Positions 31,277-40,524 of a stretch of DNA of 64,000 nucleotides are shown one piece after another. The translations under genes and the position numbers were made by a program. The stretch is from Cellulophaga sp. 20_2_10. Lineage in GTDB: Bacteria > Bacteroidota > Bacteroidia > Flavobacteriales > Flavobacteriaceae. The number at the start of each line of letters is the position of its first letter. Positions within the stretch are counted from its first letter, which is position 1. The stretch covers positions 1 to 64,000 of the forward strand of contig NZ_JAMCOJ010000012.1 of NCBI RefSeq assembly GCF_023476645.1. The letters are read 5' to 3'. Below the pieces are notes generated by a model that worked only from the letters and a program-made list of their open reading frames with translations, ran no database searches and was not told the origin of the DNA.

Positions 31277-32332
31277 TTAGTTAAAATAAACTCCGCCTGG
31301 TATAAGACCAACATCAAAAGTTTGCTCTAATTGTTTTGTTTCTAAATCGTATATAGATATAGATCCATTACTTGCATAATCTTTAGCGTCTGTTACATAC
31401 ATTTTATCGTCGTGTATAGTCATATTATAATAACTAATACTTTCTATATATGCTGCAGTAGGTAATTCTGTGTCTTCAATATCCATTTTGTAGATATTAC
31501 CTCCAAGGCCATAATAAAATTCATCATCATCTAAACCTAAAGAACCTGGATGCTCAGTAGCACCAAATGTATAATTAACGATATCACTATAATCTCTTGT
31601 ATTAATTTTAGATAAAACACCTCCTGTTTCATCTTTAGTAAAACTAGGTTTTCCACTAGCTAATACCCATAAGTAACCATCTTCTATTTGCATAGAATTA
31701 GGCACATCACCAACTTCTATAGTGTTAGATAGTTCATTTGTAATAGTATTAATTACAGAAACTTTATTATTAGTACCATAAGCACCAGAATGCGCTACAT
31801 ATAAAACATTATTTTTACCTAATAATTTTTCTGGACCTAAAACTACAGGAATAGTACCTTCTATTGCAAAACTACTTAAGTTAATAATTGCAATATAATC
31901 ATCATTTTCATCTGCAGTATCTCCCCAGTTACTTACATAGCCTTTTCCGTTAGAAACAGCAAAATAACGTGGATTATTAAGTCCTGTTGTAATTTCCCCT
32001 AATTTTTCAAACGTATTTCTGTTTACAATTGAAATTTTATTAGAAACATTTGCTATAATATATGCTTCATCATCATTAAAACCTATAGATTGTACTATTG
32101 TACCTAAATCTTCATTATTAACTTTCTTATATACCTCTGACTCCATAGTAGAGTAGTCATCAGAAATATAGTTGATAGTTCCTGTTCCGCCAGAGAAAGC
32201 GCCTTCGTTTGTTATTAAAATTCCGTTATCATATGCACCTTTTGGCAGGTCTACTGAATTATCATCGCTCTCACAAGAAATAATTAAAAATCCTAAAGCG
32301 AGTATTCCTGCTATTTTACCTTTCATTTTCAT
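31277..32332 (-). CDS. Beta-propeller surface lipoprotein, BtuG-like (DUF5074/YncE type)
   Basis: A 351-aa lipoprotein (GILALGFLIISC, Cys20, then the acidic ESDD). The body is a run of propeller blades of YncE/DUF5074 type (ILITNEGAFSGGTGTINYIS, SIVNRNTFEKLGEITTGLNN, VLYVAHSGAYGTNNKVSVIN, GDVPNSMQIEDGYLWVLASG, ending DVGLIPGGVYF). It begins four bases after the TonB-dependent receptor and shares its cobalamin riboswitch. In Bacteroides, BtuG is a surface propeller lipoprotein paired with BtuB that captures B12 with very high affinity. I infer the same role here from architecture and context, not from residue-level similarity. Confidence 0.8.
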   Translation of the reverse strand: MKMKGKIAGILALGFLIISCESDDNSVDLPKGAYDNGILITNEGAFSGGTGTINYISDDYSTMESEVYKKVNNEDLGTIVQSIGFNDDEAYIIANVSNKISIVNRNTFEKLGEITTGLNNPRYFAVSNGKGYVSNWGDTADENDDYIAIINLSSFAIEGTIPVVLGPEKLLGKNNVLYVAHSGAYGTNNKVSVINTITNELSNTIEVGDVPNSMQIEDGYLWVLASGKPSFTKDETGGVLSKINTRDYSDIVNYTFGATEHPGSLGLDDDEFYYGLGGNIYKMDIEDTELPTAAYIESISYYNMTIHDDKMYVTDAKDYASNGSISIYDLETKQLEQTFDVGLIPGGVYFN

Positions 32333-32336
32333 AGTA

Positions 32337-34172
32337 TTAAAATTTAGTTGTTAGTTGAACCATTATGTTTCTATTAGGCATAGGTCTAAATGCCGTGTTC
32401 TGATATTCTTTATTAAATAAGTTATTAATTCTTAATCCCAGAGAAGTTGTGTTTTTAGCTGTTTTTACAACATCATAACTCATTCCTAAATTTGCAACGG
32501 TATACCCAGGTAACTCGCTGCTATTATCTGTAGTTGTGTACACCAAATCGTTTCTTAATAATTGTATGTAAGCTTCAGCTTTTTTATAACTAAATGCTAG
32601 GTTAGATGTTATCTTGTGTAAAGGAACATACATTAATTGCTTGTCGTTACTATCGTCTATAGATTTTGTATATGCGTAATTAGTTAACCATACCAATTTA
32701 CTTTGCCCTAGGTGCTTTGTTACAGCTGCTTCTGCTTCTGCTCCATACTGTGTAACATCTTTTACGTTAACAGGTATCCAACCTTCTCCTGCAATAGGTC
32801 TCCATTGTATCATTTCAGATAGTTTTGTGTAATAGCCTATGACATTAAAACGAACATTTTTTAAATTAAAATAATTGCCAACTTCTACTTGTTTAGATGT
32901 TTCCGGTACTAAATCCTTATTACCTGCTCCTACCCAATACGTGTCGTTAAAAGTGGGAATTCTATAATTTTTAGAGGCGCTTAATGTTACATTATATAAT
33001 TTAGATATATTATACGCTCCGCTAAAAACAAACAAAAACGGACTAGAAAAATCACTTGTATAATCTTTTCTAACATTAAAACTATATTTTAATTTGTTTG
33101 TTAGTTTATGTTGCATTAAAATAGATACTGATGTAATGTTTCTATTAGATTCTTCTATATTTCTACCAATTACATCTGTGTAATTATTATCTATAATTGC
33201 ATTTAAAACTACATTAGAAAAAGTGTATTTATAATCATAATTAAACAAATAAGAATTAGCATAACCAAATGCATATTCTGGTCTATCTTTATTTGCATAA
33301 TACTTATATCTTTCATACAAATGTGCCACCTTTAAACGGCTAATTTTTTTATCGTTAAAATTACTCCACTCCAACATTGTTCTAACATTGGTGTTTTTAT
33401 AATTCTCGTTAGAATTTGCTAATAACGTTCCTGAAAAATCTCTAGAACCCAAATACGTGTTTTGGTATAGTTTTAAAATATTGTTATCTGAAATTAAATA
33501 CCCTAGACTAAGATCTACGTTTCCGTTTTCATAAGCTCCATTTTCATTTTTTTGGTCTGTTCCCAAGTATTTATAATCATTATTAGATGAGTTATAATTT
33601 AAACCAAGATTAAGTGACAACTTTTTAGAACCTAAAGAAAGTTTATAGTTTGTGCTTTGCGTATCAAAACTACCATAACCTATACGTAGTTCGTTATCTA
33701 AGTGCTCTTTAAAGTTAAAAGAATTATTTAGGTGAATACTACCTCCTATGGCACCACTACCATACTGTACACTACCACCACCACTTTTTACAGTAACATT
33801 ATTGTAATTAGAGGTTACAATGGTATTAAAGTCGGTTTGGCCGTTTAACTGGGAATTTATATTTATTCCGTTCCAAATAACTGCTGTTTGTTGCGCATTT
33901 GTTCCTCTAAAAGATGGCGAAGAAACCATACCATAGCCATTTTCTTTAAAATAAATTGTACTGTTATACCTTAGTAAATCTGTAAAAGAATTGGTCTTGC
34001 TTAAAACGGAATCTGTTAAAACCTGCTTTTTATTACCTACAGAAAACTGAGACAATTTAGCATCCGTTAAAATAACTTCATCTAAAACAACAACACTATC
34101 CTTTTTTTGTGCAAAAGAAAATAAGACTGTGAAAAAACACAATGCAGAAAACAAATATTTTTTATTCATCAT
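32337..34172 (-). CDS. btuB: TonB-dependent outer membrane receptor, BtuB-like
   Basis: A 611-aa protein with a signal peptide (YLFSALCFFTVLFSFAQ). A plug domain follows (about 30-150: LLRYNSTIYFKENGYGMVSS, SFRGTNAQQTAVIWNGIN, VQYGSGAIGGSIHL), then a 22-strand-type beta barrel ending in an aromatic residue (VQLTTKF). The size is that of E. coli BtuB (about 614 aa) rather than the 900-1000 residues of SusC-type receptors. The upstream cobalamin riboswitch fixes the substrate as cobalamin or a related corrinoid. It passes the ligand into the periplasm using TonB energy, for the divergently coded BtuF/BtuC/BtuD. Confidence 0.93.
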   Translation of the reverse strand: MMNKKYLFSALCFFTVLFSFAQKKDSVVVLDEVILTDAKLSQFSVGNKKQVLTDSVLSKTNSFTDLLRYNSTIYFKENGYGMVSSPSFRGTNAQQTAVIWNGININSQLNGQTDFNTIVTSNYNNVTVKSGGGSVQYGSGAIGGSIHLNNSFNFKEHLDNELRIGYGSFDTQSTNYKLSLGSKKLSLNLGLNYNSSNNDYKYLGTDQKNENGAYENGNVDLSLGYLISDNNILKLYQNTYLGSRDFSGTLLANSNENYKNTNVRTMLEWSNFNDKKISRLKVAHLYERYKYYANKDRPEYAFGYANSYLFNYDYKYTFSNVVLNAIIDNNYTDVIGRNIEESNRNITSVSILMQHKLTNKLKYSFNVRKDYTSDFSSPFLFVFSGAYNISKLYNVTLSASKNYRIPTFNDTYWVGAGNKDLVPETSKQVEVGNYFNLKNVRFNVIGYYTKLSEMIQWRPIAGEGWIPVNVKDVTQYGAEAEAAVTKHLGQSKLVWLTNYAYTKSIDDSNDKQLMYVPLHKITSNLAFSYKKAEAYIQLLRNDLVYTTTDNSSELPGYTVANLGMSYDVVKTAKNTTSLGLRINNLFNKEYQNTAFRPMPNRNIMVQLTTKF

Positions 34173-34184
34173 AATAATTTAAAC

Positions 34185-34201
34185 ATCCTTAACCCGAGGA
34201 T
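34185..34201 (-). promoter_or_regulatory. Small hairpin between riboswitch and btuB
   Basis: ATCCT / AGGAT with a seven-base loop, between the aptamer and the ATG. It may belong to the expression platform; the stem is short. Confidence 0.35.
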
Positions 34202-34216
34202 TTTTATATAAACTGG

Positions 34217-34402
34217 TACTAAATATGGCAGGTCTCCTGACTTGCGTCTTTTTGTCTTCCTTCCCGTTACTAGTGAAACAGTGGATTGTAGTTACAAAAA
34301 GCATTTACCCTTGGTAAACTTAGCTTACAGTTGCGGGAACAGTTTTGGATTTTCACCAAATTCCCTTTTAATCTTACTACACTAGGTAGTTAGAACCAAA
34401 AT
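34217..34402 (-). promoter_or_regulatory. Cobalamin (adenosylcobalamin) riboswitch
   Basis: On the minus strand the aptamer has the invariant elements in order: GGTGAAAATCC, a TTCCCGCAACTGTAAGC segment (B12-box type core), ACGGGAAGG, and AGTCAGGAGACCTGCC at the 3' side. The spacing and the paired flanks fit a class I cobalamin riboswitch. High cobalamin would reduce expression of btuB and the propeller gene downstream. The divergent btuF operon does not lie under it. Confidence 0.93.
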
Positions 34403-34408
34403 TCGGCG

Positions 34409-34416
34409 CAAAAGTA
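34409..34416 (-). promoter_or_regulatory. -7 element upstream of the riboswitch
   Basis: TACTTTTG on the minus strand, a few bases before the 5' end of the aptamer. I see no clear TTG at the standard distance. Confidence 0.5.
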
Positions 34417-34457
34417 ATCCTTTTTACTCAATTTTTTCATTCAAATGTAAATTACAC

Positions 34458-34465
34458 TACTTTTG
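34458..34465 (+). promoter_or_regulatory. -7 element of the btuF operon
   Basis: TACTTTTG. A start near 34472 would exclude the in-frame TTG at 34463 and support the ATG at 34484 as the btuF start. Confidence 0.5.
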
Positions 34466-34483
34466 GACTTTAATTCGCCATCA

Positions 34484-35638
34484 ATGAAAATTTTAAAAAT
34501 TGTTCTTTTAAGTTGTTTTTTTATACTTGCTTCTTGCAAAGAAAAAACACAGCAACCATTACCTACAACTACTGTAAAACCTAGTAAAGTAGACCTTAAT
34601 TACGCAAAAGGTTTTACCATAGAAAAGCAAGCAAATGGCGTTACTATTTTAAAAATTACCTCTCCTTGGCCAAAAGCAGAATCTGCTTTTACGTATGCAC
34701 TTGTTCCTAAAGAAAAAGCCGCTAGTATTAATTTAAATAAAGACGATTATGATGCCATTGTAACTGTTCCTGTGCAGAAACTAGTTGTAACATCTACAAC
34801 ACACATACCTGCTTTAGAAGCTTTAGGTGTTTTAGACAAGCTAGTTGGTTTTCCTAATACAGATTATATATCTTCCCCTACTGCTAGAACCTTGGTAAAT
34901 TCTGGTAAAATTGAAGAATTAGGTGTTAACCAATCTTTAAACACCGAAATGGTTATTGCACTAAATCCAGACGTTGTTGTTGGTTTTGGTATAGATAACA
35001 ACAATAAAACATACAGCACTTTACAACGCTCTAATATACCTGTTGTTTTTAATGGCGATTGGACAGAGGAAACTCCACTTGGCAAAGCAGAATGGATTAA
35101 ATTTTTTGCTCCTTTTTTTAATACAGAGGCAAAAGCCGATTCTATTTTTAAAACTATAGAAACCAATTATAATATAGCTAAAGAACTCGCTAAAAAAGCA
35201 ACCAATAGACCAAGTGTTTTAACTGGTGGTTTGTACAAAGATTTATGGCACGTAGCTGGCGGAAAAAGTTGGATGGCTCAGTTTTTAAAAGATGCTAACT
35301 CTAATTATTTATGGAGCAATTTAGAAGAAACTGGTGGTGTTGGTTTAAGTGTAGAAAGTGTTTTTGATAAAGCTGGCAAAGCCGATTTTTGGATATCGCC
35401 ATCTAGCAACTCTAGTTATAAAGAAGTTGCAGAATCTAGTGAGCATTATACCCAGTTTGATGCTTATAAAAATAAAAAAATATATACTATCACATTGGTT
35501 AAAGGAGAAACTGGAGGTGTACTATTTTTTGAGCTTGCTCCTAATAGGCCGGACTTGGTATTAAAAGACCTTATTTCTATTTTTCACCCAGACGTTTTAC
35601 CGGAATATAAGACTACATTTTTTAAACCGCTACAATAA
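34484..35638 (+). CDS. btuF: Cobalamin-type ABC transporter substrate-binding lipoprotein, BtuF-like
   Basis: 384 aa from the ATG at 34484, chosen because a lipoprotein signal (MKILKIVLLSCFFILASC) follows at once and a -7 element overlaps the upstream TTG. The rest is a two-lobed class III binding protein (TSTTHIPALEALGVLDKLVGF-type first lobe, then EMVIALNPDVVVGFG and KADFWISPSSN). Such proteins carry cobalamin, haem or siderophores; the position opposite a cobalamin riboswitch points to cobalamin. It is the first gene of btuF-btuC-X-btuD and ends one base before btuC. Confidence 0.9.
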   Translation: MKILKIVLLSCFFILASCKEKTQQPLPTTTVKPSKVDLNYAKGFTIEKQANGVTILKITSPWPKAESAFTYALVPKEKAASINLNKDDYDAIVTVPVQKLVVTSTTHIPALEALGVLDKLVGFPNTDYISSPTARTLVNSGKIEELGVNQSLNTEMVIALNPDVVVGFGIDNNNKTYSTLQRSNIPVVFNGDWTEETPLGKAEWIKFFAPFFNTEAKADSIFKTIETNYNIAKELAKKATNRPSVLTGGLYKDLWHVAGGKSWMAQFLKDANSNYLWSNLEETGGVGLSVESVFDKAGKADFWISPSSNSSYKEVAESSEHYTQFDAYKNKKIYTITLVKGETGGVLFFELAPNRPDLVLKDLISIFHPDVLPEYKTTFFKPLQ

Positions 35639-35639
35639 G

Positions 35640-36671
35640 GTGTTGCATCAAAAAAAATACACATTAGCATTTATTCTATTACTTGTTTTACTGGTAATAT
35701 GTTTTTGTATTAGCATCAGTTTTGGGTCTGTAACTATACCCTTTACAGATACTATTAGTGCTATTTTTGGGGGCGAATTACAAAAAGAATCTTGGGGTTA
35801 TATTATTAGGAATTACAGAATACCCAAAGCAATAACAGCCATATTAACTGGTGGTGGCTTAGCGTTAAGCGGTTTGTTAATGCAAACATTATTTAGAAAC
35901 CCACTTGCTGGCCCATTTGTTTTGGGTATTAGTTCTGGTGCTAGTTTAGGTGCTGCTATTTTAATTATGGGAGCTTCTATGTTGTCAGGTATTTTTACAT
36001 TCGGTGTTGTAAATAATGTAACCTTAGCTATAGCTTCTAGCACGGGTAGTTTTCTAGTTCTATTATCGGTAATGGTTGTTGCTGCCAAAGTAAAAGATAC
36101 TATGGCTCTATTAATTATTGGCTTAATGTTTGGGAGCATTACCGCTGCAATTGTTAGTGTATTATCGTACTTTACAGATGCAGAACAATTGCAACAATAC
36201 ATTTATTGGTCTTTTGGTAGTCTTGGTAACTTATCTTGGTCACAATTAGGCTTATTAGCTATTATAATTGGTACAGGAATTTTTATAAGCATCTTTACTA
36301 TTAAATCTTTAAATGCTTTTTTATTGGGTGAAAACTATGCGCGTAGTTTAGGTGTGCATATAAAAAAACAACGTTTTTTAATTATACTAGCTACAGGTTT
36401 ATTAGCTGGCGGTATTACTGCTTTTGCGGGCCCTATTGCTTTTATAGGATTGGCTGTACCACATTTAACCAGACAAGTATTTAATACCACAAATCATAAA
36501 ATACTAATTCCTGCTGTACTTCTTTACGGAGCCATTTTAATGCTCCTATGCGATACAATTGCACAATTACCATCTAGTGCTTATGTTTTGCCCATAAACG
36601 CTATTACCTCTATTATTGGTGCGCCTGTAGTAATTTGGCTGTTAATACGTAAAAAGAAAATGGTATTTTAG
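35640..36671 (+). CDS. btuC: FecCD/BtuC-family ABC transporter permease
   Basis: A 343-aa permease with about ten transmembrane helices. Family signatures include RIPKAITAILTGGGLALSG, LMQTLFRNPLAGPFVLGISS, YWSFGSLGNLSW, the cytoplasmic coupling segment SLGVHIKKQR, and GPIAFIGLAVPHLTRQ. It forms the homodimeric inner-membrane channel for corrinoids (or metal chelates). The start is GTG at 35640, one base after the btuF stop; no ATG is available. The cognate ATPase gene is displaced 0.7 kb downstream by the gene at 36688. Confidence 0.92.
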   Translation: MLHQKKYTLAFILLLVLLVICFCISISFGSVTIPFTDTISAIFGGELQKESWGYIIRNYRIPKAITAILTGGGLALSGLLMQTLFRNPLAGPFVLGISSGASLGAAILIMGASMLSGIFTFGVVNNVTLAIASSTGSFLVLLSVMVVAAKVKDTMALLIIGLMFGSITAAIVSVLSYFTDAEQLQQYIYWSFGSLGNLSWSQLGLLAIIIGTGIFISIFTIKSLNAFLLGENYARSLGVHIKKQRFLIILATGLLAGGITAFAGPIAFIGLAVPHLTRQVFNTTNHKILIPAVLLYGAILMLLCDTIAQLPSSAYVLPINAITSIIGAPVVIWLLIRKKKMVF

Positions 36672-36687
36672 CAAAAATTCAAAAGCT

Positions 36688-37314
36688 ATGTTTAAATTTT
36701 GGAAGCAAGAAAATGCTAAATACAATAAACTTATTTTAATAAAAGACAGTTGTATCTTTATTGGTAATCCGGATGAAAAATCAATATCCAAATTAAATTC
36801 TGAAACTACTGATTTTTCATTTTTAAAAGGAATTTTTAGTATCCCATATTCATATATTAAGAAAATTGAAACACAAAAAGGAAAACATAAAATTTCAATT
36901 TATTATGGTAAAGAATCTGAAGAAGAAATAGTTATTAAAGACGAAAACATAAAAAAAGAAATATTTAGTTATTTAAAAATTGATATTCATAATGCAGAAT
37001 ACAAAAGTAAAAAACCAAATGTATTCATATACGCTAAATCACAAATGTTTGCAGTTTTGATTGTAAGTTTAATTTTTGGGTATTCTTTTTACTCTGCTCA
37101 CATTATTGAAAATCAACTTTTTGATTACATATATGTTCCTAATATTCTTTTATTACCCATAATTAATATGGGAACTACAAAAATAGCAATTGTCTTTGCT
37201 GTATTAATTACCATTTGCTTATTTGGATTAGTACATAAACTAAAGTCAATATCTGAAATTGAGTCTATTATTCCCTTTAAAAGCTTTAATAATTATATTG
37301 AAAAGAATATCTAA
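36688..37314 (+). CDS. Unknown PH-like membrane protein inserted in the btu operon
   Basis: A 208-aa protein. Residues about 12-100 form short beta strands like a bacterial PH domain (KLILIKDSCIFIGNPD, IFSIPYSYIKKIETQKGK, ISIYYGKESEEEIVIKD). Two transmembrane helices follow (about 112-132 and 168-185), and the tail is charged. It has no transporter motif. It lies between btuC and btuD, where the three transporter genes are normally contiguous. Its codon use looks more AT-rich and Lys/Ile-rich than its neighbours. Architecture matches the protein at 40629, so the two may be distant paralogues. Confidence 0.7.
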   Translation: MFKFWKQENAKYNKLILIKDSCIFIGNPDEKSISKLNSETTDFSFLKGIFSIPYSYIKKIETQKGKHKISIYYGKESEEEIVIKDENIKKEIFSYLKIDIHNAEYKSKKPNVFIYAKSQMFAVLIVSLIFGYSFYSAHIIENQLFDYIYVPNILLLPIINMGTTKIAIVFAVLITICLFGLVHKLKSISEIESIIPFKSFNNYIEKNI

Positions 37315-37342
37315 ATTTAAACGAATAAAAAAAATTACTTTA

Positions 37343-37350
37343 TAACTTTG
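37343..37350 (+). promoter_or_regulatory. Possible -7 element upstream of btuD
   Basis: TAACTTTG, about 28 bases before the ATC codon where btuD should start. No TTG is visible at the expected distance. Confidence 0.3.
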
Positions 37351-37377
37351 GTTTAGGTAATTTACAAAACAAAAAAC

Positions 37378-38169
37378 ATCGAAAAAGAACAACAGCATAC
37401 AGCCCTAGAAGTAAAAAACCTAAGCATTGGTTACAGCTCCAAGAAACAACAAAATGTTATTTCTAAGGATATTAATTTTGCTTTGCAAAAAGGGGAATTA
37501 ACTGCTATTGTTGGTATAAATGGCATAGGAAAATCTACTTTGCTGCGTACTTTGGGTAATGTACAACCAAAACTTAGTGGTACTATTAGTATTGATACTA
37601 TTGAAATTAACGACTACAAACCAGGACAATTAGCTGCCAAAATAAGCGTTGTTTTAACAGAAAAAATAGCCTCTAAAAACTTAACTTCTTTAGAAGTCAT
37701 TGCCCTAGGAAGACAACCATACACCAATTGGATAGGTACTTTAACAGCAACTGACAAACAAAAAATTACAGAAGCTATTTCTTTGGTTCAAATTGAAGAA
37801 TTACAGCACAAAAAGTGCTATGAACTTAGTGACGGACAATTACAAAAAGTAATGATTGCCAGAGCCTTGGCACAAGACACCTCTATTATTTTGTTAGACG
37901 AACCAACATCTCACCTAGATTTGTACCACAAGGCAACTATATTAAAACTATTAAAAAACATAGCGCATAAAACTAAAAAGACGATTCTATTTACAACACA
38001 CGAAATAGAAGTTGCTTTGCAATTATGCGATAAAATTTTAATTCTAGATAAAAATACAAGTCATTTTAATACTCCAGATGCACTAATTGCTGCTAAAAAG
38101 TTTGATTCCCTTTTTCCGAAAGATACTATTACTTTTAATCCTGAAAGTGGTTCTTTTAAAGTCGTCTAA
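37378..38169 (+). CDS. btuD: Cobalamin-type ABC transporter ATPase, BtuD-like, with no standard start codon
   Basis: A FecE/BtuD-type ATPase. Walker A is GINGIGKST, the signature LSDGQLQKV, Walker B SIILLDEPTSHLD and the H-loop TTHE. The family sequence begins before the first TTG (37483): the frame upstream reads ALEVKNLSIGYSSKKQQN VI and is open back to a TAG at 37354. No ATG, GTG or TTG exists in that stretch. The most ATG-like position is ATC at 37378 (ATC GAA AAA GAA CAA), so the natural start may have mutated or been lost when the upstream gene was inserted. The TTG at 37483 would cut off the first nucleotide-binding strands. The start is therefore uncertain. Confidence 0.85.
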   Translation: MEKEQQHTALEVKNLSIGYSSKKQQNVISKDINFALQKGELTAIVGINGIGKSTLLRTLGNVQPKLSGTISIDTIEINDYKPGQLAAKISVVLTEKIASKNLTSLEVIALGRQPYTNWIGTLTATDKQKITEAISLVQIEELQHKKCYELSDGQLQKVMIARALAQDTSIILLDEPTSHLDLYHKATILKLLKNIAHKTKKTILFTTHEIEVALQLCDKILILDKNTSHFNTPDALIAAKKFDSLFPKDTITFNPESGSFKVV

Positions 38170-38251
38170 ATTTTCTGCCAGTTTCTAAAAACTATAAAGA
38201 AAACAAAAGACAAAACCTTTATCTTTACTTTTTTATAGACACTAGAATTTT

Positions 38252-39583
38252 ATGCCCGATTTTTTAATTTACTTTTTAGTTGCCATTTTATGCCTTGCTG
38301 CAGGTTACTTTTTAGGGAATTATATTCAGAACCTTAAAACAAAATCTAGCCAAAGTGCTCTATTAGAAAGAGAATCTATATTAAAGCAAAACTTGACTAC
38401 ATTAGAAAATAAACTATTATCTCTAGAGGATGAAAAAAACTCTTTGCGTGAAGACAAAGAGCTACTTGGAAACAGAATTACAAGATACCAAGCAGATTTA
38501 GAAAACCTTGAACTTAAGAATACAGAACAAAAACAAGAAGTAGAACAGCTTCAAGAAAAGTTTACCAAAGAGTTTGAAAACTTAGCGAATAAGATTTTAG
38601 ACGAAAAAAGTACCAAGTTTACAGAACAAAATCAGGTAAACATTAAAAACATTTTACATCCATTACAAGAAAAAATTCTGTTGTTTGAGAAAAAGGTTGA
38701 AGAAAGTCAGAAAGAAAACATCAGCATACATTCTGCCTTAAAAGAACAATTATTAAACTTACAGAGTCAGAACCTAAAAATTACCCAGGAAGCAGAAAAC
38801 TTAACTAAAGCATTAAAAGGCGATAGTAAAATGCAAGGAAACTGGGGAGAACTGGTGTTAGAACGTGTACTAGAAAAATCTGGATTAGAAAAAGATAGAG
38901 AATATACAGTACAGCAAAGTTTTACAAGAGAAGATGGTTCTAGAGTATTACCAGATGTTATTATTAATTTACCCGATAATAAAAAAATGGTAGTAGATTC
39001 TAAAGTATCTTTAACCGCTTACGAGCGTTATGTAAATGCGGACGATGAAACTGATAGAGAACAATTTTTAAAAGAACATATTGCTTCTCTACGTAAACAT
39101 GTAGATCAATTATCAGCAAAAAAATATGAAGACTTATACGAAATGGAAAGTCCAGATTTTGTCTTGCTTTTTGTTCCTATAGAACCTGCTTTTGCAGTAG
39201 CCATTAATAATGATAACAACTTATACAACAAGGCTTTTGAACAGAACATTGTTATAGTTACCCCATCTACTCTACTTGCTACTTTACGCACTATAGATAC
39301 AATGTGGAACAATGAAAAACAACAACGTAATGCCATACAGATTGCCAAACAAGCTGGTGCTTTGTATGACAAGTTTGAAGGTTTTGTTGGTGACTTAACT
39401 AGAGTTGGCAAAAAAATGGATGAAGCTAAAACGGAGTACAAAGGCGCTATGAATAAGTTGGTAGAAGGTCGCGGTAACATTGTAACTTCTATAGAGAAAC
39501 TAAAAAAAATGGGTGCCAAGGCTAAAAAATCTATTCCTGAGTCAATTTTAAATAGAGCTTTAGATAACCACGAAGAATTATAA
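38252..39583 (+). CDS. rmuC: DNA recombination protein RmuC
   Basis: A 443-aa protein with an N-terminal transmembrane helix (FLIYFLVAILCLAAGYFLG). A long coiled coil follows (about 30-175), then the RmuC core (about 185-400): QGNWGELVLERVLEKSGL, LPDVIINLPDNKKMVVDSKV, SPDFVLLFVPIEPAFAVAI, VIVTPSTLLATLRTID. RmuC limits inversion and other rearrangements at repeats; the core is a PD-(D/E)XK nuclease-like fold. Its operon partners are unclear: the next genes are 28 and then 4 bases apart, so it probably leads a three-gene transcript. Confidence 0.93.
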   Translation: MPDFLIYFLVAILCLAAGYFLGNYIQNLKTKSSQSALLERESILKQNLTTLENKLLSLEDEKNSLREDKELLGNRITRYQADLENLELKNTEQKQEVEQLQEKFTKEFENLANKILDEKSTKFTEQNQVNIKNILHPLQEKILLFEKKVEESQKENISIHSALKEQLLNLQSQNLKITQEAENLTKALKGDSKMQGNWGELVLERVLEKSGLEKDREYTVQQSFTREDGSRVLPDVIINLPDNKKMVVDSKVSLTAYERYVNADDETDREQFLKEHIASLRKHVDQLSAKKYEDLYEMESPDFVLLFVPIEPAFAVAINNDNNLYNKAFEQNIVIVTPSTLLATLRTIDTMWNNEKQQRNAIQIAKQAGALYDKFEGFVGDLTRVGKKMDEAKTEYKGAMNKLVEGRGNIVTSIEKLKKMGAKAKKSIPESILNRALDNHEEL

Positions 39584-39611
39584 ACAAAAACAACCATTAT
39601 ACTTTTATAAA

Positions 39612-39977
39612 ATGAAAAAAGCATTAATTATTACCGTATTACTTATTGTAGCCGTATTTGCAGCTATGTATGCCTTTATATATTATGTGCCAATTAGCGA
39701 GGGTTATAGATCTGGCGAATTAATAAAATTTAGCCACAAAGGAGTTATTGTTAAAACCTGGGAAGGAGAAATAAGTCAAGGAATATCTGGAGCGCAAATA
39801 TTTTCTTTTTCGGTTTTAGATAAAGACGAAGACATTATAAATAAGTTAAAAGAATACCAAGGTAACTATGTAAAGGTTACCTATGTAGAGCGTTACGCAA
39901 CTTTTTCTTGGTTAGGTGATACTAAATATTTTATTACAGAAGTAACAAAAGAAAAATCTCCACACGTTAGAAATTAA
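39612..39977 (+). CDS. Small membrane-anchored protein of unknown function
   Basis: A 121-aa protein with an N-terminal transmembrane helix (ALIITVLLIVAVFAAMYAFI) and an exported beta-rich domain (GYRSGELIKFSHKGVIVKTW, AQIFSFSVLDKDE, GNYVKVTYVERYATFSWLGD). Proteins of this kind are common in Flavobacteriaceae between rmuC and a thioesterase. Some are annotated as 6-phosphogluconate dehydrogenase, which the sequence does not support. No catalytic motif is visible. It is four bases upstream of the thioesterase gene. Confidence 0.8.
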   Translation: MKKALIITVLLIVAVFAAMYAFIYYVPISEGYRSGELIKFSHKGVIVKTWEGEISQGISGAQIFSFSVLDKDEDIINKLKEYQGNYVKVTYVERYATFSWLGDTKYFITEVTKEKSPHVRN

Positions 39978-39981
39978 GACT

Positions 39982-40524
39982 ATGAAAAAATTTAAAACGG
40001 CTAAAGAATCTAAAGTTTCTATAACAGAATTAATGTTGCCTGCACACTCTAATTTTGGAGGTAAAGTGCACGGTGGTTATATTTTAAATCTAATGGACCA
40101 AATTGCATTTGCTTGTGCCTCTAAACACTCTAGAGGTTACTGCGTAACTGCATCTGTAAACAGAGTAGATTTTTTAAACCCCATAGAAGTAGGAGAATTA
40201 GTGACACTTAAAGCATCTATAAACTATACGGGTAGAACCTCTATGGTTGTTGGTGTTAGGGTAGAATCTGAAAATATTACATCAGGAGAAAAAAAACACT
40301 GTAATTCGTCTTATTTTACAATGGTTGCTAAAGATGCAGATGGTAAAAGCTTAGTAGTGCCAGGACTTTTAGTAGAAGATAAACAAGGCATACGCAGATT
40401 TGCGCGTAGTATTAGACGTAAAGAGCAAGCCTTTAAAAGAAGTAACACTTTTGAATCTTCTAACTTTAAGATTGAAGACTTTGTAGACACCTTAGAATCT
40501 GAAAACATTAAAATTGAACTTTAG
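39982..40524 (+). CDS. Acyl-CoA thioesterase, hotdog fold
   Basis: A 180-aa single hotdog domain: MLPAHSNFGGKVHGGYILNL with the active-site Asn/His-Gly region, MDQIAFACASKHS, CVTASVNRVDFLNPIEVGEL and INYTGRTSMVVGVRVESENI. This matches YciA/ACOT7-type thioesterases, which hydrolyse acyl-CoA in the cytoplasm. It follows the 39612 gene by four bases. The C-terminal tail is charged and not part of the hotdog fold. Confidence 0.9.
   Translation: MKKFKTAKESKVSITELMLPAHSNFGGKVHGGYILNLMDQIAFACASKHSRGYCVTASVNRVDFLNPIEVGELVTLKASINYTGRTSMVVGVRVESENITSGEKKHCNSSYFTMVAKDADGKSLVVPGLLVEDKQGIRRFARSIRRKEQAFKRSNTFESSNFKIEDFVDTLESENIKIEL

Follow-up and report, generated by a model that had tools for sequence, protein, structure and literature searches.

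The btuD gene of Cellulophaga sp. 20_2_10 is very probably intact and initiated at a weak near-cognate start codon, ATC at position 37378, the gene inserted upstream of it being a separate event. The position and the near-cognate nature of this start are well supported by the comparison of orthologous loci; its use by initiator tRNA, its low yield, its sensitivity to IF3 and its biological purpose are what we infer by analogy with known near-cognate starts.

Reading frame of btuD and organisation of the B12 region

The window analysed was a stretch of 64,000 nucleotides (contig NZ_JAMCOJ010000012.1). Direct reading confirmed the initial annotation in that btuD has no normal start codon and that ATC stands at 37378 (37378..37380, plus strand), and both the absence and an ATH codon (ATA, ATC or ATT) at that place recur in independent assemblies. 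The frame had also been described as open from 37354; it is indeed open, but an in-frame TAG occupies 37354..37356 of the plus strand and closes it upstream, so that it is open from 37357. From there the codons read GTA ATT TAC AAA ACA AAA AAC ATC GAA AAA GAA CAA CAG CAT ACA GCC CTA GAA GTA AAA AAC. The ATT at 37360..37362 is the sole other ATH codon of the open leader and lies off the conserved column described below, so it is a less likely start. No ATG, GTG or TTG is found in frame before the TTG at 37483..37485, 35 codons past the ATC and after the NLSIGY motif.

The btuD gene belongs to a divergent pair of units, apparently for B12 handling, in which a receptor gene on the minus strand is opposed to btuF-btuC-ORF-btuD on the plus strand. 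The receptor gene (32337-34172, minus strand) is btuB-like and TonB-receptor-like, and a cobalamin riboswitch (RF00174, 34210..34415, minus strand, 105 bits) lies upstream of it; no further Rfam match up to E 0.1 was found within 31500-40500, and so no riboswitch before btuF-btuC-btuD. The plus-strand unit consists of a gene for a btuF-like binding protein (34484..35638; Pfam Peripla_BP_2, E 1e-22), the btuC permease gene (35640..36671; Pfam FecCD, E 1e-78), which starts with GTG followed by TTG and ends with TAG at 36669-36671, an inserted 208-aa ORF for a probable membrane protein (36688..37314), and btuD (37378..38169; Pfam ABC_tran, E 7e-30), encoding the ABC-type ATPase of a probable B12 importer, with 263 codons from the proposed ATC and TAA at 38167-38169. 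Pfam thus places a FecCD permease, a periplasmic binding protein and an ABC ATPase together in the window. As in the BtuCDF cobalamin importer, the three are consecutive and stand beside a TonB-receptor-like gene with a cobalamin riboswitch; unlike in that system, the btuD start is non-canonical, some lineages have extra genes between btuC and btuD, and the NCBIfam equivalog cut-offs were missed, the best matches being BtuC for the permease and FecE for the ATPase, both below cut-off. The names btuC, btuD and btuF are based on domain, gene order and riboswitch.

Start codons of btuD across the family

Thirty btuD loci were obtained from the window genome and its relatives (41 of 60 genomes matched, and 30 became loci). 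To these were added the best 80 of 517 named btuD loci from species genomes, in which close relatives hence weigh heavily, and 97 further btuD stretches as an even sample of the family, giving 207 loci, or 192 once identical copies were removed. The tblastn match served as an ungapped anchor for each locus, column 0 being the codon that aligns with 37378. A locus was called canonical if an in-frame ATG, GTG or TTG stood at most eight codons from column 0 within the open frame. One locus (L022), with a run of N upstream of btuD, was scored as canonical.

By this rule 128 of the 192 distinct loci were canonical and 64 were not, so that non-standard initiation, suggested by the initial annotation for this one gene, is strongly supported and reaches far beyond the window genome. 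Column 0 of the 64 non-canonical loci is occupied by ATC in 30, ATA in 16, ATT in 15, GTC in two and AAA in one, the last with ATC one codon upstream. ATH therefore stands exactly at column 0 in 61 of the 64 loci (39 of 42 after collapse at 80% identity). At other columns it was found in 11 of the 64 at -1, in no more than these 11 for any column from -9 to -1, in 13 at most for any upstream column from -12, and in none to two at +1 to +6; at column +7, within the first strand, 38 of the 64 loci carry ATH and the window carries ACA. The ATH codon is retained at column 0 across btuC-btuD gaps of 1 to 1059 nt. Among the 128 canonical loci, the start codon stands exactly at column 0 in 80 (ATG 52, GTG 17, TTG 11), within two codons of it in 115 and further off in 13. 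The 48 loci with a start off column 0 have assorted codons there, including six ATH; as these six have a canonical codon elsewhere, the count of 64 is probably conservative. In two loci (L024 and L121) the start region lacks canonical and ATH codons alike, and both carry GTC at column 0, like Streptomyces sigR.

The leader upstream of column 0 is A-rich. In the window, A is read at -12, -6 and -3 from the ATC (37366..37377, plus strand). In the 64 loci the fraction of A is 0.70 at -13, 0.86 at -12, 0.70 at -11, 0.55 at -6 and 0.64 at -3, and is lower (0.33-0.39) at -9 and -8; after collapse of the loci below 80% identity, A is at -12 in 33 of 42, with a leader-wide A of 0.42. G makes up 0-9% at positions -13 to -5, and being almost absent upstream of btuD it leaves no Shine-Dalgarno sequence. 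Leaders of this kind, A-rich and lacking a Shine-Dalgarno sequence, are usual in Bacteroidetes, a phylum that does not use the latter. In Flavobacterium johnsoniae, initiation is described as tuned by adenines at -3, -6, -12 and -13, with an A-rich stretch from -14 to -11 (PMC6847099).

A conserved isoleucine could by itself explain column 0, as ATT, ATC and ATA are exactly the three isoleucine codons. The real start would then be another non-standard codon further upstream, or BtuD would come from the upstream gene through a frameshift or readthrough, and several loci do have a second ATH upstream, such as ATT 37360 in the window. We consider this quite improbable. Fourteen of the 64 non-canonical loci have an in-frame stop no more than two codons before column 0, no upstream column rises above the 13 loci given above, and the A-rich box is spaced to the column-0 codon. 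Frameshift or readthrough is further opposed by the upstream gene, which varies from locus to locus, and by the wide range of gap lengths. The column that bears ATG, GTG or TTG in most orthologues bears ATC, ATT, ATA or GTC where those are missing, which makes a plain isoleucine unlikely and suggests a selective exchange with start codons. In two of the 64 loci, where the btuD frame overlaps btuC, an ATG is present 16 or 17 codons upstream. A frameshift fusion of btuC and btuD was also considered, the end of btuC being A-rich, and was rejected on account of in-frame stops between the genes in the loci checked and of the differing upstream gene.

It is very unlikely that BtuD is shorter and translated from the inner canonical codon, TTG 37483. 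A canonical codon is present at that column in 15 of the 64 loci, and the closest relatives show no clear synonymous excess before the TTG. Between the window and its four closest relatives there are 4-9 synonymous and 5-8 amino-acid changes in the 35 codons that run from the ATC to the TTG, and this stretch alone, short and variable as it is, gives no clear sign of constraint. Against the inner start, the NLSIGY motif would be lost, and the four closest relatives keep it as NLSVGY or SLSIGY; the first canonical codon downstream is scattered among the 64 loci, from codon 9 to codon 158; and the canonical loci overwhelmingly (115 of 128, as above) begin at the upstream column or within two codons of it. 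The TTG was therefore rejected as the start.

The inserted ORF and the btuC-btuD gap

The view that an unrelated gene interrupts the btu operon holds. Relatives of the 208-aa ORF were found in three of 60 genomes searched, namely that of the window, G006 and G033; the homologues in the latter two have 49 and 46% identity and are located elsewhere, and in G006 btuC and btuD are 11 nt apart. The four closest relatives (G002, G005, G015 and G011) have no insert, a btuC-btuD gap of 19-34 nt and the identical ATC. The description of the product as PH-like was not borne out by domain searches: neither Pfam nor NCBIfam assigns it to a family, the one Pfam hit (ETRAMP, E 0.014) being below threshold. 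Its AlphaFold model, with a mean pLDDT of 50.7, was too poor to support a fold search, although the order of strands followed by helices is compatible with that label. The gap carrying the ORF has 22% GC.

Other genes occupy the gap elsewhere, as named by sequence inspection: one for a beta-lactamase-fold serine-hydrolase-like protein in G004 and G016, one for a secreted protein in G018 and one for a lipoprotein-like protein in Joostella. The gap seems to be a recurrent place of insertion, with differing unrelated genes in loci L014, L015, L024 and L104.

The initial annotation had also proposed that the insertion removed the btuD start, in which case btuD would be damaged or its start improvised. 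No other locus read has the 208-aa ORF between btuC and btuD, and the window shows no canonical start. Such damage is nevertheless most improbable, since the four insert-free relatives have ATC too, as do two other Cellulophaga-group genomes with a different gap of 1.06 kb, and the btuD frame is intact over its 263 codons. The initial annotation had named an identical ATC in relatives as a refutation; what this ATC refutes is damage or a base-calling error, and it supports non-standard initiation. ATC and ATG differ by a single base, but a base-calling or assembly error has practically no chance of being the cause, as many species show the same result in assemblies made independently, the single-contig genomes G002, G013, G009, G010 and G015 among them. 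Under initiation at the ATC, the inserted gene would be a separate event that moved btuD about 700 nt away from btuC and left its start untouched.

After such a move btuD may possess its own promoter: by position, a candidate is TAACTTTG at 37343..37350 (plus strand), which resembles the Bacteroidetes -7 promoter box. A scan for sigma-70-type promoters between btuC and btuD gave nothing exceeding shuffles, and TAnnTTTG occurs in the window at chance frequency, so we treat a promoter of its own as no more than possible.

Comparison with neighbouring genes and infC

Genes in the same loci rarely lack a canonical start: this was so in 1 of 65 btuF, 1 of 160 btuC, none of 86 rmuC and none of 55 thioesterase genes (2 of 366 in total), and under the same rule in 62 of 192 btuD genes. 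A further control gene, btuB, gave no usable loci. The two exceptions among the controls were btuC of L183, which begins ATT ATT ACT CTG, and btuF of L128.

A wider scan for similar genes was small, with 95 and 62 non-overlapping pairs. Comparison of 400 kb of G002 with 400 kb of G013, both Cellulophaga stretches, yielded 95 non-overlapping orthologous frame pairs, in five of which both members had a frame conserved for at least eight codons before their first canonical codon. Only in btuD did the conserved upstream frame exceed 25 codons (60 and 57 codons). The other four flagged pairs were the receptor gene beside the btu genes, where the riboswitch probably accounts for the conserved leader, and three with 8-19 conserved codons, which we took for conserved leaders or frames in the rRNA region. 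A scan against a near relative, G011, produced 98 candidates among 293 pairs and was discarded, as non-coding DNA and shadow frames also align at such closeness.

As a known positive we used infC, in 48 loci (L136, at G000:C57, and L234-L280) from 18 genomes of the genus and the best 30 of 59 hits in the family sample. Six of the 48 were unreadable with the motif used and were dropped. All 42 readable loci have ATA, and no ATG, GTG or TTG, at the expected N-terminus, followed by an alanine codon (GCA in 41, GCC in one). Judging from these loci, the IF3 of the family itself appears to start at AUA.

Distribution of the non-canonical start

In a family sample of one genome per genus, btuD was found in 113 of 149 genomes (E 1e-70). 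The census of start codons covered 110 of these 113 loci (G019, G020 and G029 were left out), and 17 of the 110 had no canonical btuD start (15 ATH, 2 GTC). Within the genus of the window, 12 of 18 genomes have a btuD without a canonical start and six have a canonical one. Among the named loci, the best 80 of 517, the non-canonical form was present in all 14 Arenibacter and in 11 of 21 Maribacter loci; it also occurs in Galbibacter, Zhouia, Leptobacterium, Kriegella, Ulvibacterium, Muriicola and Cerina.

A quickly built BtuD tree has a branch (SH-aLRT 84) with 102 of the 192 rows on one side, and 62 of the 64 non-canonical loci belong to that side. At least 21 changes between the canonical and non-canonical states are needed on the tree, and well supported branches force 10 of these; with so many switches the weak start is dispensable. 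As far as the tree goes, the trait clusters in that part of the family, where it is probably old; it is rare outside it and has often been lost or regained. Recurring across many genera, the near-cognate start has the look of a trait that has been retained, and not of damage or a sequencing error.

Proposed mechanism and comparison with known near-cognate starts

AUC, AUU and AUA each differ from AUG by one base and are weak starts, against which IF3 discriminates in other bacteria. In btuD, the ribosome would be placed by the A-rich leader without a Shine-Dalgarno sequence, and initiator tRNA would read the ATC at 37378, so that the protein would begin Met-Glu-Lys-Glu. The weak start would hold BtuD synthesis below the level given by AUG, and that level may be tied to IF3 or to initiation stringency, as for infC. 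The simplest purpose would be to keep a soluble ATPase beneath the level to be expected from its A-rich leader. BtuD may also be linked to IF3, and hence to growth state.

Near-cognate starts are known in other bacteria. The infC gene of E. coli starts with AUU, and E. coli pcnB reportedly does so too. Like infC, btuD has a near-cognate AUH start at a fixed position. The two differ in that the product of infC, IF3, gives a clear feedback loop, and BtuD is not known to act in translation; moreover, infC has ATA in all 42 loci of the family, whereas btuD floats between ATT, ATC, ATA, GTC and canonical codons.

In S. aureus, infC starts with AUA, and AUH starts are also described for cvfC1 (AUU), ccpN (AUA) and citZ (AUA), those of cvfC1 and ccpN being conserved (PMC13009471). 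In poor medium the AUU and AUA starts there gave roughly 10% of the AUG yield, and in rich medium ccpN reached up to 30% (PMC13009471). An extended Shine-Dalgarno sequence accompanies S. aureus infC, cvfC1 and ccpN, according to that paper (PMC13009471), unlike in btuD, with its near absence of G at -13 to -5 (0-9%). Streptomyces sigR starts with GTC and is repressed by IF3, which sets its ratio to its partner (PMC5472188). With btuD it shares a non-canonical start in an operon with partner proteins that need balance, and GTC is found in two btuD loci as well; unlike btuD, it encodes a regulator, and its IF3 effect was measured (PMC5472188), whereas for btuD such an effect would follow by analogy.

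A change from AUG to AUU was recorded once in 61,358 reconstructed prokaryotic AUG starts, in a published survey (PMC5622118). Annotation that favours ATG, GTG and TTG may hide some of these changes. Given such rarity, the recurrence in btuD calls for selection, or at least for long tolerance. No paper on a non-AUG btuD was found among those listed by a search of the open-access literature. We regard the btuD start as a new example of an already known type of element; its setting, a transporter subunit with no Shine-Dalgarno sequence and with near-cognate codons that float, was not found described in that search.

Gene callers limited to ATG, GTG and TTG are likely to truncate or miss such proteins. 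With ATG, GTG, TTG, ATC, ATT, ATA and GTC all occurring at one place in a single gene, the btuD loci amount to a natural series, in bacteria that do not use Shine-Dalgarno sequences, suited to testing how a weak start is chosen and what keeps it in place. B12 is the cofactor of methionine synthase, and hence of the supply of initiator methionine. We tentatively propose, while holding it rather doubtful as a whole, that a large clade of the Flavobacteriaceae restrains its B12 uptake at the level of translation: a weak start without a Shine-Dalgarno sequence would be kept by selection, BtuD would follow IF3 or initiation stringency, and the import of B12 may thereby be coupled to the initiation machinery.
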